A stretch of 63,328 nucleotides of DNA from Candidatus Gastranaerophilales bacterium (GTDB lineage Bacteria > Cyanobacteriota > Vampirovibrionia > Gastranaerophilales > Gastranaerophilaceae): contig CANQMP010000009.1 of NCBI GenBank assembly GCA_947624975.1, forward strand, positions 1-63,328, read 5' to 3'. Position numbers and translations under genes: made by a program. Below are positions 882 to 58,264 of this stretch, one piece after another. The notes below the pieces were generated by a model that was not told the origin of the DNA, ran no database searches, and worked only from the letters and a program-made list of their open reading frames with translations. The stretch's first letter is position 1. Every line of letters begins with the position of its first letter.

Positions 882-1845
882 ATGAAAAAGAAGATTACAA
901 GAGTATTAAACGCATCGGGGGGGGGGGGGATTTGCTCCTAGTAAGTGCTTCAGCGGTATCCTAACCTCCAAAACCAAGAAATTATCAACAATTTTTCGGG
1001 TTGAGGGAACTTCCCTCTTACAGAAACCCACTCAAACAGACCTTTTTAAAGGAGAAGGAAATAAATATATTCCTTTTCTCAAAAAAGGAATATTTATATG
1101 GGGTAAAAATAAAAAAGCCGCGTTTACTTTGGCAGAGGTTCTTATCACCCTAGCCGTTATCGGCGTTGTCGCAGCTTTGACAATTCCGACACTAATAAAT
1201 AATTATCAGGAAAAAGTAACCGTTACAAAGCTCAAAAAAACTTATTCTATATTAAGCAATGCTTATCAACTTGCCAAAATTGATTACGGTTCAATTGATA
1301 CGTGGGGGTTTTATGTGTCAAAATCTTACACCGATGATGATGGAAACGTAACTTATAACAATGCTTCTTCAGATAATTCACGAAAATTTTACGATATTAT
1401 GCAAAACTACTTAAAAGTTACATCAGCCTGTCTGCAGGATGATCGTGATTGTTATAGATATAATAATACATCTAATCCAAGATATACTTTAAATGGTTCT
1501 CTATTTTCTTCCGGCGAAACAATACCCATTTTAAATTTGCAGGATGGTGTATCAATTGCCGGTTTTTGGTGGAATGGTACAATCGGGGATTTTGCAGTCG
1601 ACTTAAACGGTATCCATGGAAAACCCAATACTATTGGGCGTGATATATTTTTCTTTGCCATTGACAGAAAATATGGACTTGTCCCTTATGGTAAAATTTT
1701 GTCTGTAAATACGTTTGCAAATACGTGTGTAAGTGCTAATCCGCAAGGGTTTGGCTGTACAGCATGGGTAATCTATAATGAAAACTTGGATTATTTGAAA
1801 TGCCCTGATGAACTCTCATGGGACGGTAAACATAAATGTGATTAA
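882..1845 (+). CDS. Type IV prepilin-like protein, start separated from body by a 13-G tract
   Basis: The body from 1123 has a type IV prepilin N-terminus (KKAA then FTLAEVLITL, hydrophobic helix with Glu at +5), so the mature protein should be cut by prepilin peptidase and enter a pilus or pseudopilus. The frame is open only from 910 and has no ATG, GTG or TTG before a TTG at 1129, which would delete the cleavage site. A good start exists at ATG 882 (promoter 822-849, GAAAGGG ribosome site), but as sequenced it reads MKKKITRVLNASGGGGICS and stops at 941. Removing one G from 917-929 joins this start to the body as a 320-residue protein with an 80-residue leader, much longer than the 14-25 residues of the three other prepilins here. 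Its beginning resembles that of the prepilin at 43445 (KILNSG versus RVLNASG), which supports ATG 882. It lacks the DGWxIKDDYP C-terminus of its paralogues. Confidence 0.8.
917..929 (+). repeat. 13-G homopolymer inside the prepilin start region
   Basis: Thirteen consecutive G, twelve codons into the reading frame from ATG 882. With 12 (or 15) G the start and prepilin body are in frame; with 13 they are not. This is typical of contingency-locus tracts, but it is also a place where sequencing errors concentrate. Confidence 0.9.
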
Positions 1846-10797: not shown

Positions 10798-12603
10798 TTA
10801 TGATTTAACAAGTTCTGATGCGAACGATTCGGAACTTCTTGATTTTATTTCATCTTTAATCTTTTCGATAAATTCATCAACGTTAAATGTTCCGACCTGT
10901 CCGATTTTTCTTGCACGAACCGCAACGGAATTGCTTTCGATTTCCTTGTCGCCGATTACGCAAACGTAAGGAATTTTCTTATCTTGCAGACTTTCTCTGA
11001 TTTTGTAGTTCATGCTTTCCGAACGGTCGTCGAGAGTTGCTCTAATACCTGCATTACGCATTTTTTCGTAAACGGTTTGTGCAAAATCCGTGTGTTTGTC
11101 GTTTGAAATCGGCACGATAGCAACCTGAACGGGAGAAAGCCATGTCGGGAATGAGCCTGCATAATGTTCAATTAATATACCGTGGAAACGCTCCATAGAA
11201 CCGAAAATTACACGGTGAAGCATAACCGGAGTTTTCATTGAACCGTCTTTATCCTGATATTTTATATCAAAACGTGCGGGCAAGTTGAAATCCAACTGAA
11301 TTGTCGCACATTGCCATGTTCTTCCGATAGCGTCTTTAACTTTAAAGTCGATTTTCGGGCCGTAGAAAGCGCCGTCGCCTTCGTTAATTTCGTATGTCAT
11401 GCCTCGTCTGTCCATCGCCTCTTTCAAGCCGGCTTCGGCTCTGTTCCAGTTTTCGATTTCGCCTACGTAGCTTTCGGGGCGGGTCGAAAGTTCGACTTCA
11501 AAGTTCATGTTAAAGATTTTCATTGTATCGGCAACGAAATCAATAATTTCGTTTATCTCATCAACAAGCTGTTCGGGCGTGCAGAAGATGTGTGCATCGT
11601 CTTGCGTAAAGCCTTGTACACGGGTCAAACCCGCAAGTGCTCCGGATTTTTCTTTTCTATAAACCGTACCCAGCTCAGCCATTCTCAAAGGAAGCGAGCG
11701 GTAGGAATGCCTGTTTGCCTGATAAATCAATATATGGAAAGGACAGTTCATAGGTTTAAGGATGAATTGTTCGTCGCTGTCCTCATCTTTTTGGATAAAG
11801 AACATATTTTCACGATAATGGTCTGCGTGTCCCGATATTTCCCAGAGTTTTGATTTTGCGATATGGGGCGTGTTAACTATCACGTAACCGCGTTTTCTAT
11901 GTTCCGTTCTCCAATAATTTTCGATTTCTTCTCTTACGACAGCCAAATTCGGATGCCAGAGAACAAGTCCTCCGCCGAGTTCATCTCTTGTGGAGAAAAG
12001 GTCTAATTTTGTGCCGAGTTTTCTGTGGTCGCGTTTTTCCGCTTCTTCAAGGAAGTTCAAATAATCCGCTAAATCTTCTTTTGTCCAGAAAGCCGTTGCG
12101 TAAATTCTCTGTAACATTTTGTTTTTTTCGTTACCGCGCCAGTATGCACCTGCGACTTTCAATAATTTAAAAGCATTAGCCTTGATATATGAAGTATTCG
12201 GGAGGTGTGGACCTGCACAAAGGTCGTTAAACATAGCGTTCCCGTCTTTGTCTTTTGTAATATACAGAGTCGGATTATCATTTTTGTGTTCTTCAAGCAA
12301 TTCAGCTTTGTAAATTTCACCTTCCGATTTGAATTCCTGAATTTGTTTTTCAACATCAGGTATGACGTATTTTTCAAAGGTAAGATTTTGTTTAACGATG
12401 TTTTTCATTTCTTCTTCAATTTTCGTCAAATCTTCTTGAGTAAAGGCATGCCCGTCTGTCAAATCAAAGTCATAGTAAAAGCCGTTTTCAATAGAAGGCC
12501 CGATTGCCAACTTTGCAGACGGAAACAATTTCTGAACGGCTTGAGCCATAATGTGTGATGTCGAGTGTCTTAAAATCGACAAAGTTTCACTGTTTTTTTC
12601 CAT
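10798..12603 (-). CDS. thrS: Threonine-tRNA ligase
   Basis: A 601-residue class II synthetase. The N-terminal editing domain shows RHSTSHIMAQAV. The catalytic domain follows from about residue 215 with RPMNCPFH-like KPMNCPFHILIY, YRKEKSGALAGLTRVQGFTQ (motif 2) and MLHRVIFGSMERF (motif 3), and then an anticodon-binding domain. The small N-terminal TGS domain present in longer ThrRS is missing, as in several bacterial lineages, so the protein starts directly in the editing domain. The ribosome site is weak (AAGGATAG, 13 bases upstream). About 200 bases separate it from the divergent FkbM gene. Confidence 0.96.
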   Translation of the reverse strand: MEKNSETLSILRHSTSHIMAQAVQKLFPSAKLAIGPSIENGFYYDFDLTDGHAFTQEDLTKIEEEMKNIVKQNLTFEKYVIPDVEKQIQEFKSEGEIYKAELLEEHKNDNPTLYITKDKDGNAMFNDLCAGPHLPNTSYIKANAFKLLKVAGAYWRGNEKNKMLQRIYATAFWTKEDLADYLNFLEEAEKRDHRKLGTKLDLFSTRDELGGGLVLWHPNLAVVREEIENYWRTEHRKRGYVIVNTPHIAKSKLWEISGHADHYRENMFFIQKDEDSDEQFILKPMNCPFHILIYQANRHSYRSLPLRMAELGTVYRKEKSGALAGLTRVQGFTQDDAHIFCTPEQLVDEINEIIDFVADTMKIFNMNFEVELSTRPESYVGEIENWNRAEAGLKEAMDRRGMTYEINEGDGAFYGPKIDFKVKDAIGRTWQCATIQLDFNLPARFDIKYQDKDGSMKTPVMLHRVIFGSMERFHGILIEHYAGSFPTWLSPVQVAIVPISNDKHTDFAQTVYEKMRNAGIRATLDDRSESMNYKIRESLQDKKIPYVCVIGDKEIESNSVAVRARKIGQVGTFNVDEFIEKIKDEIKSRSSESFASELVKS

Positions 12604-12743
12604 AATAATACTTTCTATCCTTTTGTAGGTAAGCTTTTGATGTATAACAACATTTTATAAATCGGCTCACCCCTGGGGCGGATCCCCCTAACTGATACTC
12701 TTTACAGTGTACTACCGAAATGTTTTTTATTCAAGGTATAAAG

Positions 12744-12772
12744 TTGAAAAAAAATACTTTTTATGATATTAT
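12744..12772 (+). promoter_or_regulatory. Promoter of the FkbM methyltransferase gene
   Basis: TTGAAA (12744-12749), 17-base spacer, TATTAT (12767-12772). It is followed by AAGAAGGAG and ATG 12806. Confidence 0.65.
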
Positions 12773-12824
12773 TCAAAGGTTAGTATCAGTAAGAAGGAGA
12801 AAATAATGGAAGAACTGAAAAAAC

Positions 12825-13778
12825 ATGTTATGGGGGGGGGGGCAGTGGCTCTTTAACCGTGGACATCTGTATTTTGAGCAAAAAAATGTAAAATTTATTG
12901 TTTACACTATTTTAGGTTTTAAGTTTTATTTATTTAAGGGGTATAAAGTTTTACTTTCGACATACGTTGAAAGTTTCAGACAGTATTATAAGAAACATGG
13001 ACGAAATTTACATAAAATCGTAAAAGATTTAAAAGAAGGTATGGATTTGATTTCGTGTGAATATATTGACAAGTTAATTTCCATTTCAAAGTCTTATTAC
13101 ACTTACACTAAAAAGAATTTTAACCTTGGCTGGACTAAATACGATTTGCAGGAAGAAGCGGAGTGTGCAAAAATAAACTTTGAACAGCCGTTTCCCGATA
13201 TTGCGAATTATTCTCCGTTTAAATTTTATAGTTTGTATGGCTTAAAAGACTTACCGAAAGAGGTTTTGGAGAATATTAACGGTAAAGATATAATTGATGC
13301 GGGCGGTTACACAGGCGATACAGCTGTGTTGTTCGCACAAAATTTCAAAAAATCGAAAGTATTTGTTTATGAACCGATTATCGAAAACATAAATACAATA
13401 AAAAATACTATATCAGCAGGAAAATTTGACAATATTATTCCCGTGCCTAAAGGTGTAGGTGACAAAAACGAACGTATTAAATTTTCTTACAATTACGAGA
13501 ATATGGCAGATATCGTAAGATTAGATGATGACTACAAAGGTGAAAATCTCGGACTGATTAAAAGTGATATAGAAGGATTTGAAGGTCAGCTCATTGATGG
13601 AGCTGCAGGCTTGATAAAAAAATACAAACCTGTTTTGACAATTTCATGTTATCATTCGGCAGAAGACTTTTTTGAATTGAAAAGAAGAATTCAGGCAATT
13701 AACCCCGAATATAAATTTATGATAAGAAGAAGTGACAAAACCTACCCTTGTGTTGAACTTGTTTTGGTTGCTTATTAA
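12825..13778 (+). CDS. FkbM family methyltransferase with an 11-G tract at its start
   Basis: A 317-residue SAM-dependent methyltransferase of the FkbM type, which methylates sugars or other small groups, often on surface glycans. The SAM site is IIDAGGYTGDTAVLFA (about residues 157-172), followed by VFVYEPI and IKSDIEGFEGQLIDGA. As sequenced, the open frame begins at ATG 12825. The best start, ATG 12806, lies behind promoter 12744-12772 and an AAGAAGGAG ribosome site, but it reads MEELKKHVMGGGAVAL and stops at 12856. One G less in 12832-12842 would fuse this start to the methyltransferase. So the gene may be switched by tract length, with ATG 12825 giving at most weak expression in the present state. 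It lies alone between thrS and ssb. Confidence 0.82.
   Translation: MLWGGGQWLFNRGHLYFEQKNVKFIVYTILGFKFYLFKGYKVLLSTYVESFRQYYKKHGRNLHKIVKDLKEGMDLISCEYIDKLISISKSYYTYTKKNFNLGWTKYDLQEEAECAKINFEQPFPDIANYSPFKFYSLYGLKDLPKEVLENINGKDIIDAGGYTGDTAVLFAQNFKKSKVFVYEPIIENINTIKNTISAGKFDNIIPVPKGVGDKNERIKFSYNYENMADIVRLDDDYKGENLGLIKSDIEGFEGQLIDGAAGLIKKYKPVLTISCYHSAEDFFELKRRIQAINPEYKFMIRRSDKTYPCVELVLVAY
12832..12842 (+). repeat. 11-G homopolymer at the FkbM start
   Basis: Eleven consecutive G, nine codons after ATG 12806. With 10 or 13 G, ATG 12806 is in frame with the methyltransferase; with 11 it is not. Confidence 0.9.
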
Positions 13779-13851
13779 GTTTACATTTCTTAATCCTGAA
13801 TTTCCATGTCCTATATTTTTTTTGTATAATAGAAAAAAAAGAGGTTATATT

Positions 13852-14181
13852 ATGAATACAGCAGTAATAGTAGGCAGAGCAGGCAAAGACGCCGAAATCA
13901 GGTATTTTGAATCAGGCAAGGTAAAAGCGAGTTTTTCTCTCGCTGTCGGTCGTTGGGATTCAAAGACAAAAGAGGAAGTTACGGATTGGTTTAACATTGA
14001 TGTGTGGGATAAACTTGCCGAATTCGCGGGTGAATACATCAAAAAAGGCACTCAGCTTGTAGTTGACGGCAGAATTATGGTAAATAAATGGACTGATAAA
14101 GCAACAGGCGAAGACAGAGAAAGTTTTTTTGTCGTTGCTAATTCCATAAGGTTATTAGGTTCAAGAAAAGACGTACAATGA
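13852..14181 (+). CDS. ssb: Single-stranded DNA-binding protein
   Basis: A 109-residue OB-fold protein: NTAVIVGRAGKDAEIRYFES, SFSLAV, DWFNIDVWDKLAE, GTQLVVDGRI. It binds single-stranded DNA in replication and repair. It lacks the acidic C-terminal tail (DDDIPF-like) that docks partners in typical bacterial SSB, so it may be a cyanobacterial-type short SSB or an accessory form. ATG 13852 is chosen because the OB fold begins there and GAGG precedes it; TATAAT lies at 13825-13830. Its TGA overlaps the next ATG. Confidence 0.85.
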   Translation: MNTAVIVGRAGKDAEIRYFESGKVKASFSLAVGRWDSKTKEEVTDWFNIDVWDKLAEFAGEYIKKGTQLVVDGRIMVNKWTDKATGEDRESFFVVANSIRLLGSRKDVQ

Positions 14182-47204: not shown

Positions 47205-47284
47205 TTGTAACGAATTGTAAAGAAATTTACAAACCCCCGAAACCCTTGCTATAATTGCTCATAGCATAGCATAGCATAGCATAG
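47205..47284 (+). promoter_or_regulatory. Composite promoter block, copy B
   Basis: TTGTAA repeated ten bases apart (47205, 47215), TTTACA (47226-47231), 18 bases, TATAAT (47250-47255) with TGC extended -10, then five CATAG units (47260-47284). No protein gene follows on this strand before a terminator at 47373. Confidence 0.75.
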
Positions 47285-47406
47285 CAAAATTATGCCCTTT
47301 TTTAAAAATTCCCCTAAAGTTTTACAAAATTTTGCCGTTATATAACATGAAAGGAAACAAAATACTTTTTTTAAGCACAAAATCTATGGTTTTGTGCTTT
47401 TCTTTT
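47262..47406 (+). ncRNA. Candidate small RNA between promoter block B and its terminator
   Basis: The predicted transcript runs about 145 bases from just after TATAAT 47250-47255 to the T run at 47406. It begins with the CATAG array. No convincing ORF is inside: ATG 47347 has no ribosome site and reads through the terminator. It may be a small RNA, or the leader and terminator left when a gene like those at 29322 and 58265 was lost. Confidence 0.4.
47373..47406 (+). terminator. Plus-strand terminator
   Basis: AAGCACAAAA / TTTTGTGCTT, 7-base loop, T-rich tail. The tail is on the plus strand only, so it is not the terminator of proA on the minus strand. Confidence 0.8.
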
Positions 47407-58090: not shown

Positions 58091-58171
58091 TTGTAACGAA
58101 TTGTAAATCCATTTTACACATGCCCGAAACCCTTGATATAATTACTCATAGCATAGCATAGCATAGCATAG
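58091..58171 (+). promoter_or_regulatory. Composite promoter block, copy C
   Basis: TTGTAA repeated ten bases apart (58091, 58101), TTTACA (58113-58118), 18 bases, TATAAT (58137-58142), then five CATAG units (58147-58171). Nearly identical to copy A upstream of 29322. Confidence 0.75.
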
Positions 58172-58264
58172 CAGTAATTTTTCGCCTAATTTCGATTTTT
58201 CTGAAAATTTTCCTCGGCGTTTGTTTTTATATAAATAAGAGAGTATAAAAATGAGGAGAACTTT

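Follow-up and report, generated by a model that had tools for sequence, protein, structure and literature searches.

Can a run of 11 G nucleotides near the 5' end of a gene for a putative FkbM-family methyltransferase switch the expression of that gene, and does the run belong to a larger set of such elements? The gene is located in a stretch of DNA, hereafter called the window, that spans positions 1 to 63,328 of contig CANQMP010000009.1 in the Candidatus Gastranaerophilales bacterium assembly GCA_947624975.1, and all window coordinates refer to this contig. The host group consists of gut bacteria that are non-photosynthetic relatives of cyanobacteria. From the tract, its reading frames, the gene family, and the placing of comparable tracts throughout the genome, we infer slippage, switching in cells, a substrate, and a benefit, and we consider it probable that the G11 tract is a contingency (phase-variation) switch that operates by slipped-strand mispairing within a genome-wide set.

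In the proposed mechanism, slipped-strand mispairing during replication would add or drop a G in the tract, which would bring the reading frame of an ATG at position 12806 into line with that of an FkbM-type O-methyltransferase or take it out again. With 10 or 13 G, the enzyme would be made from ATG 12806, whereas with 11 or 14 G it would be made only weakly, from a second ATG at 12825. Tracts of 9, 12, or 15 G would yield no enzyme. The enzyme is envisaged to methylate a sugar of a surface glycan, and the switch would cause a random change of the cell surface. Roughly 65 such switches appear to be present in the genome, the rest being mainly in prepilin leaders and glycosyltransferase-type genes.

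Reading frames and start signals of the FkbM gene

The 5' region of the gene includes the following features.

12744..12772, + strand, promoter-like site TTGAAA-17-TATTAT, with TG before the second hexamer
12791..12799, + strand, ribosome-binding site AAGAAGGAG, 6 bases before ATG 12806
12806..12856, + strand, reading frame of ATG 12806 at 11 G, 16 codons followed by TAA
12825..12827, + strand, second ATG, in register with the methyltransferase at 8, 11, or 14 G, good ribosome-binding site absent
12832..12842, + strand, G11 tract (proposed switch), with its first G 26 nt downstream of the A of ATG 12806
12843..13778, + strand, FkbM-family methyltransferase body, 311 codons plus stop, with IIDAGGYTGDTA and IKSDIEGFEG motifs

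The original prediction, made from the DNA of the window, held that ATG 12806 is halted after 16 codons at 11 G and is fused to the methyltransferase by 10 G. Both statements agree with the frames that we computed for each tract length. Translation from ATG 12806 at 11 G yields MEELKKHVMGGGAVAL and ends at the TAA at 12854-12856, and 10 G joins this start to the 311-codon body, as does 13 G. More generally, ATG 12806 is open to the stop at 13778 with 7, 10, 13, or 16 G, and the full product is 323 amino acids long at 10 G. The first G of the tract is also the G of an ATG at 12830.

ATG 12806 is out of frame at 11 G, but ATG 12825 sits in the methyltransferase frame and begins an open ORF of 317 codons (317 amino acids), so 11 G is not a clean OFF. 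At 8, 11, or 14 G, full protein can be read from ATG 12825 only, and 9, 12, or 15 G alone shut both starts. The present 11 G state, judged from these frames, may be 'low' rather than 'off' for the methyltransferase.

The start signals that had been assigned to ATG 12806 stand in part. The ribosome-binding site is present, but promoter-like sites in a regional scan were no more common than in shuffled sequence (6 versus 5.9), leaving its sensible position as the argument for the site at 12744-12772. The distance of a single G from fusion had also been offered as evidence, but this property holds for every out-of-frame tract and adds nothing.

The FkbM methyltransferase product

The 317-amino acid product matches TIGR01444 with a score of 58.6 bits (cut-off 37.7) and PF05050 with a score of 22.8, which is just above the cut-off of 22.7. 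The N-terminal portion of about 155 residues lies outside the TIGR01444 match. An AlphaFold2 model of the protein has a mean pLDDT of 70.7 and a pTM of 0.72, and its best fold match in the PDB is 2py6, an FkbM methyltransferase (E = 2.4e-9). By its profile score above the curated cut-off and its modeled SAM-dependent methyltransferase fold, the product can be assigned to the FkbM family (TIGR01444, PF05050, 2py6), with which it has domain, motifs, and fold in common.

Residues 1-9 of the model, including those encoded by the tract, are of low confidence and adopt no secondary structure, suggesting that extra residues at this N-terminus should be tolerated. Downstream of the tract, the ORF is intact and the family motifs are conserved. 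The most likely substrate is a sugar of a surface glycan. This candidate is a guess, because the gene stands alone between thrS and a gene of the single-stranded-DNA-binding (SSB) type, outside any glycan cluster.

A variable interval and the orthologues it holds

These two neighbors border an interval that differs among species.

10798..12603, - strand, thrS (threonyl-tRNA synthetase), flanking the FkbM-bearing variable interval on one side
13852..14181, + strand, SSB-type gene, 109 amino acids, the other border, named by motif rather than by family search

The SSB-type gene is present in 33 of 33 genomes of the genus. The thrS-SSB interval (window 12604-13851; L134-L162) varies within the genus, being empty or occupied by prepilin genes with or without tracts or by FkbM genes. 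Some of the prepilins at this position in other species carry 10-base tracts.

A search of relatives' contigs, in which the matches that bear names come from Candidatus Gastranaerophilales bacteria, gave as the closest syntenic orthologue L193, which shares 51% identity and is also located beside thrS. This gene carries G8 at codons 13-15, in frame, and encodes 328 amino acids with a similar leader. A separate G10 lies in frame in the middle of the same FkbM gene in genome G010 (L194). The remaining FkbM orthologues, which are the majority, are tract-free, giving lengths across relatives of G11 here, G8 in L193, and none in the others. Within the genus there is no orthologue of high DNA identity for a length comparison, the best protein identity being about 49%; the contig search gave 51%. 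On these comparisons, the 5' tract would be either old in one branch or gained twice at the same place, and the G010 tract appears to have been gained separately, elsewhere in the same gene family. We count both L193, with G8 at the same place and in frame, and the G10 of L194 in favor of a phase-variation switch.

The same orthologues bear on a different view of the gene, in which translation naturally starts at ATG 12825, the gene is ON at present, and the Gs merely encode three glycines. The 317-amino acid ORF at 11 G is compatible with this view, and the length that precedes the conserved part is near that of the orthologues. However, ATG 12825 lacks the good ribosome-binding site that ATG 12806 has, and the L193 tract falls inside the frame of a well-served start. 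Even if ATG 12825 were the true start, gain or loss of one G would still break the frame. We regard this explanation as very unlikely.

One might also suppose that the gene is a pseudogene or a recently disabled copy whose tract is neutral, given that it is out of frame from its best start in the assembly and that many orthologues are tract-free. With 311 open codons that retain conserved motifs, and with tracts concentrated genome-wide in surface genes (see below), this seems highly improbable to us.

Excess of long G runs

The window has 12 occurrences of the G8 word compared with 0.43 expected. The 1.9 Mb genome has 76 G/C runs of at least 9, of which 74 were found by pattern search and two more at contig starts. 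Low-order Markov models (orders 1-3), fitted to the window and then applied to 1.91 Mb, predict approximately 0.8-2.4 such runs over both strands. Thus, G runs of such length are not due to chance.

For the tract survey, the genome was read as stretches around runs of 8 or more. Tract lengths range from 8 to 16, plus one of 26, with a mode of 12, and several tracts sit at contig ends. The 26-G run (L058:1204-1229, contig C18) is by far the longest, resides in a GT-D glycosyltransferase gene, and is either real or a sequencing artefact.

Three other observations concern repeats in the window. A/T runs of at least 9 are rarer than expected, with one present compared with about 15-20 predicted by low-order models. 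A 181-bp tandem repeat of 2.1 copies that are 99% alike (1931-2317) lies within a non-coding repeat that ends in G9 (2314-2322). Perfect 5.4-copy CATAG arrays occur at 47260-47286 and 58147-58173, each immediately preceded by a closely similar promoter-like sequence, ccgaaacccttgNtataattNct.

Tracts in prepilin leaders

The largest class of tracts is found in prepilin leaders, with 37 recognized by leader and about 40 when copies at contig ends and in C sense are included. The first switch to be proposed in the window belongs to this class.

882..1845, + strand, prepilin gene whose leader carries an out-of-frame G13 tract (917-929)

The leaders follow the pattern ATGAARAAR...CATC and then G8-16, and in nearly every one the distance from the ATG to the start of the tract is 35 nt. 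Since the tract lies upstream of the FTLAEV processing motif, the residues it encodes should be removed on maturation. There are 103 prepilin motif matches in the genome. We considered the leader of this genome as a genus-wide element and rejected this idea, with 32 copies here and a single chance-like match in 32 other species. A scan of viral contigs for the leader gave seven matches.

Among the prepilins of this genome, the shift needed is +2 in 19 and +1 in five, and five are in frame. In-frame tracts make up 5/29 here, 6/63 in genome G014, and 2/15 in genome G150. The pooled value of 13/107 is below one third with a binomial p of 9e-7, a figure that overstates independence because paralogues share ancestry.

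The regularity of this class is relevant to whether the tracts could be assembly or sequencing artefacts of G homopolymers. Such errors would fit the tracts at contig ends and the run of 26 G, but they would not be expected to yield gene-specific placing and the constant ATG-to-tract spacing of dozens of prepilins, and the independently assembled relative L193 has G8 at the same place as the FkbM tract. We therefore consider an artefact extremely improbable, although the exact FkbM tract length of 11 could be off by one.

Tracts in glycan genes

The coding tracts outside prepilins are mostly (24/29) in glycosyltransferase, sugar-modification, or FkbM genes. Families represented include GT2, GT6, GT8, GT10, GT52/polysialyltransferase-like, GT61, GT-D, and DUF4422, along with TupA, epimerase, GDSL, deacetylase, pyruvyltransferase, and FkbM. 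The other five tracts are in genes for a histidine kinase (G8 only), a KAS III, a HAD-like protein, a Pfam-less methyltransferase-like protein, and one unknown. One locus (L053) has two adjacent FkbM genes with C12 and C14 at codon 9, 26 nt after the ATG, as in the window gene.

Tracts are placed early in only about 7/27 glycan-type genes and otherwise lie mid-gene or near the 3' end, where by analogy they would change the C-terminus of the product. Glycan-gene tracts are in frame in about 8/22 readable cases, which is near the one in three expected if phase is random.

The tracts are concentrated in genes for surface structures. This is the outcome that the original prediction had looked for in a search of the genome for G runs of at least 9, namely clustering in pilus and glycan genes, and it is borne out by the approximately 40 prepilin leaders and by the 24 of 29 other coding tracts. 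The further expectation that tracts lie within the first 20 codons holds for prepilins, usually at 35 nt after the ATG, but fails for most glycan genes. The broader proposal of a genome-wide contingency system gains support from the placing of tracts, as well as from the excess of runs in related genomes described below.

Distribution in the lineage and behavior of tracts in sister species

An excess of G/C runs is evident in 126 of the 146 genomes of the family, with counts that range from none to about 130 per genome. Genome G011 has 176 runs. Genomes from a sister family of the same class have 3-4 runs, and most other cyanobacterial genomes have fewer runs per megabase, though they differ in base composition.

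Loss of the mismatch repair protein MutS was considered as a cause and rejected, as MutS1 was found in 146/146 genomes of the family. Genera g3, g21, g26, g36, g37, and g39 have a shorter MutS1 (about 770-830 amino acids, below the family cut-off) than the usual length of about 860 amino acids or more. In several of these genera, G runs are few or absent.

Tracts of two further lineages were compared, using G014 loci L163-L192 and L224-L263 and stretches L324-L339 from G011 and G001. Between G011 and G001, which are about 91% identical, 13 or 14 of 15 matched tracts are equal in length, at 10, which argues that tracts in this clade are not freely variable. The G014 tracts are likewise uniform, with a length of exactly 10 in 64 of the 72 that were read. 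Prepilin leaders account for 63, and 55 of these 63 need exactly one added base. The frame at the start of the tract varies between genes, and the coding-sense tract consists of Gs in some and of Cs in others. In the G014 clade, the tract Gs keep to a single strand along almost every contig (85 versus 16 overall), with opposite-strand genes carrying Cs, and the local GC skew in G014 leans toward the same strand as the tract Gs.

Around the tract, two near-identical prepilin paralogues of G014 agree at 192 of some 197 positions. One (L188) has G11 and is in frame (ON), and the other (L189) has G10 and is out of frame (OFF). This difference of a single G suggests that one-base changes do occur. 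In both this pair and L257/L258, the two copies show complete or near-complete identity across about 200 bases surrounding the tract and diverge beyond them, as gene conversion would leave.

The G014 pattern could reflect either a narrow equilibrium of tract length, with frames such that this length is OFF, or expression via RNA slippage. Homopolymers this long can slip at the levels of both RNA polymerase and the ribosome. Applied to the FkbM gene, this raises the prospect that the DNA tract is fixed and that slipping by the RNA polymerase or ribosome yields the full enzyme at a steady low level. The prevalence of length 10 and of a +1 requirement in G014 prepilins is in keeping with such a process, and so is the agreement in tract length between the sister species G011 and G001. 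However, lengths in the window genome vary from 8 to 16 (one 26) with a mixed need for shifts, for which a single programmed shift is inadequate. The G014 lengths also fit a narrow equilibrium near 10, comparable to the peak at 9-10 in Campylobacter (PMC6321876). Overall, we consider slippage at the RNA or ribosome level an unlikely basis for the FkbM tract.

Phase variation by DNA slippage remains our preferred reading, against which we count the presence of MutS1, the equal lengths in G011 and G001, and the mostly tract-free orthologues. As a tentative extension, the tracts could serve to maintain a large and mostly silent prepilin repertoire, in which the favored length is OFF by one base and a rare G gain or RNA slippage turns on a few prepilins at a time. 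The one-strand Gs of the G014 clade would hint at a replication- or recombination-linked role atop slippage.

Comparison with known contingency systems

The most familiar poly-G contingency systems are those of host-adapted Campylobacter, Helicobacter, and Neisseria. The mechanism proposed here is already known from the first two genera, whereas its occurrence in this lineage and the large number of prepilins involved appear to be new. No link between the Gastranaerophilales group and phase variation was found in the open-access literature searched. If our reading is true, a contingency set of comparable or larger size arose in an unrelated lineage of uncultured gut relatives of cyanobacteria. 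This would account for the apparent frameshifts of many metagenome-assembled genomes, and existing reads would then allow the diversity of pili and sugar coats in the group to be tested.

Among the contingency loci of Neisseria and Haemophilus, pilC has a tract in its signal-peptide region and lic1 has alternative starts in different frames. The leader of a pilus gene is thus a shared location, and the use of starts in multiple frames to give graded states is reminiscent of ATG 12806 and ATG 12825. The genes are unrelated, however, and here dozens of paralogous prepilin genes themselves carry the tract, at a position that precedes the processing site.

The Campylobacter phasome has many poly-G/C tracts, mostly in ORFs and with a narrow length peak at 9-10, and the affected genes include SAM-dependent methyltransferases and sugar transferases (PMC6321876). 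Many tracts in ORFs and the involvement of methyltransferase and sugar-transferase genes are common to both systems. In contrast, the present lineage belongs to a different phylum, its largest class is prepilin leaders, and tracts in the window genome are longer, with a mode of 12 rather than 9-10.

Helicobacter canadensis has tracts of G9 to G16 in genes that include methyltransferases, and late tracts swap the C-terminus (PMC2823697). The GT2, GT10, and polysialyltransferase-like genes of the present genome are similar in having tracts close to their 3' ends. Compared with the 29 annotated tract-associated coding regions of that species (PMC2823697), there are more tracts here, and they occur in a MutS-bearing lineage.
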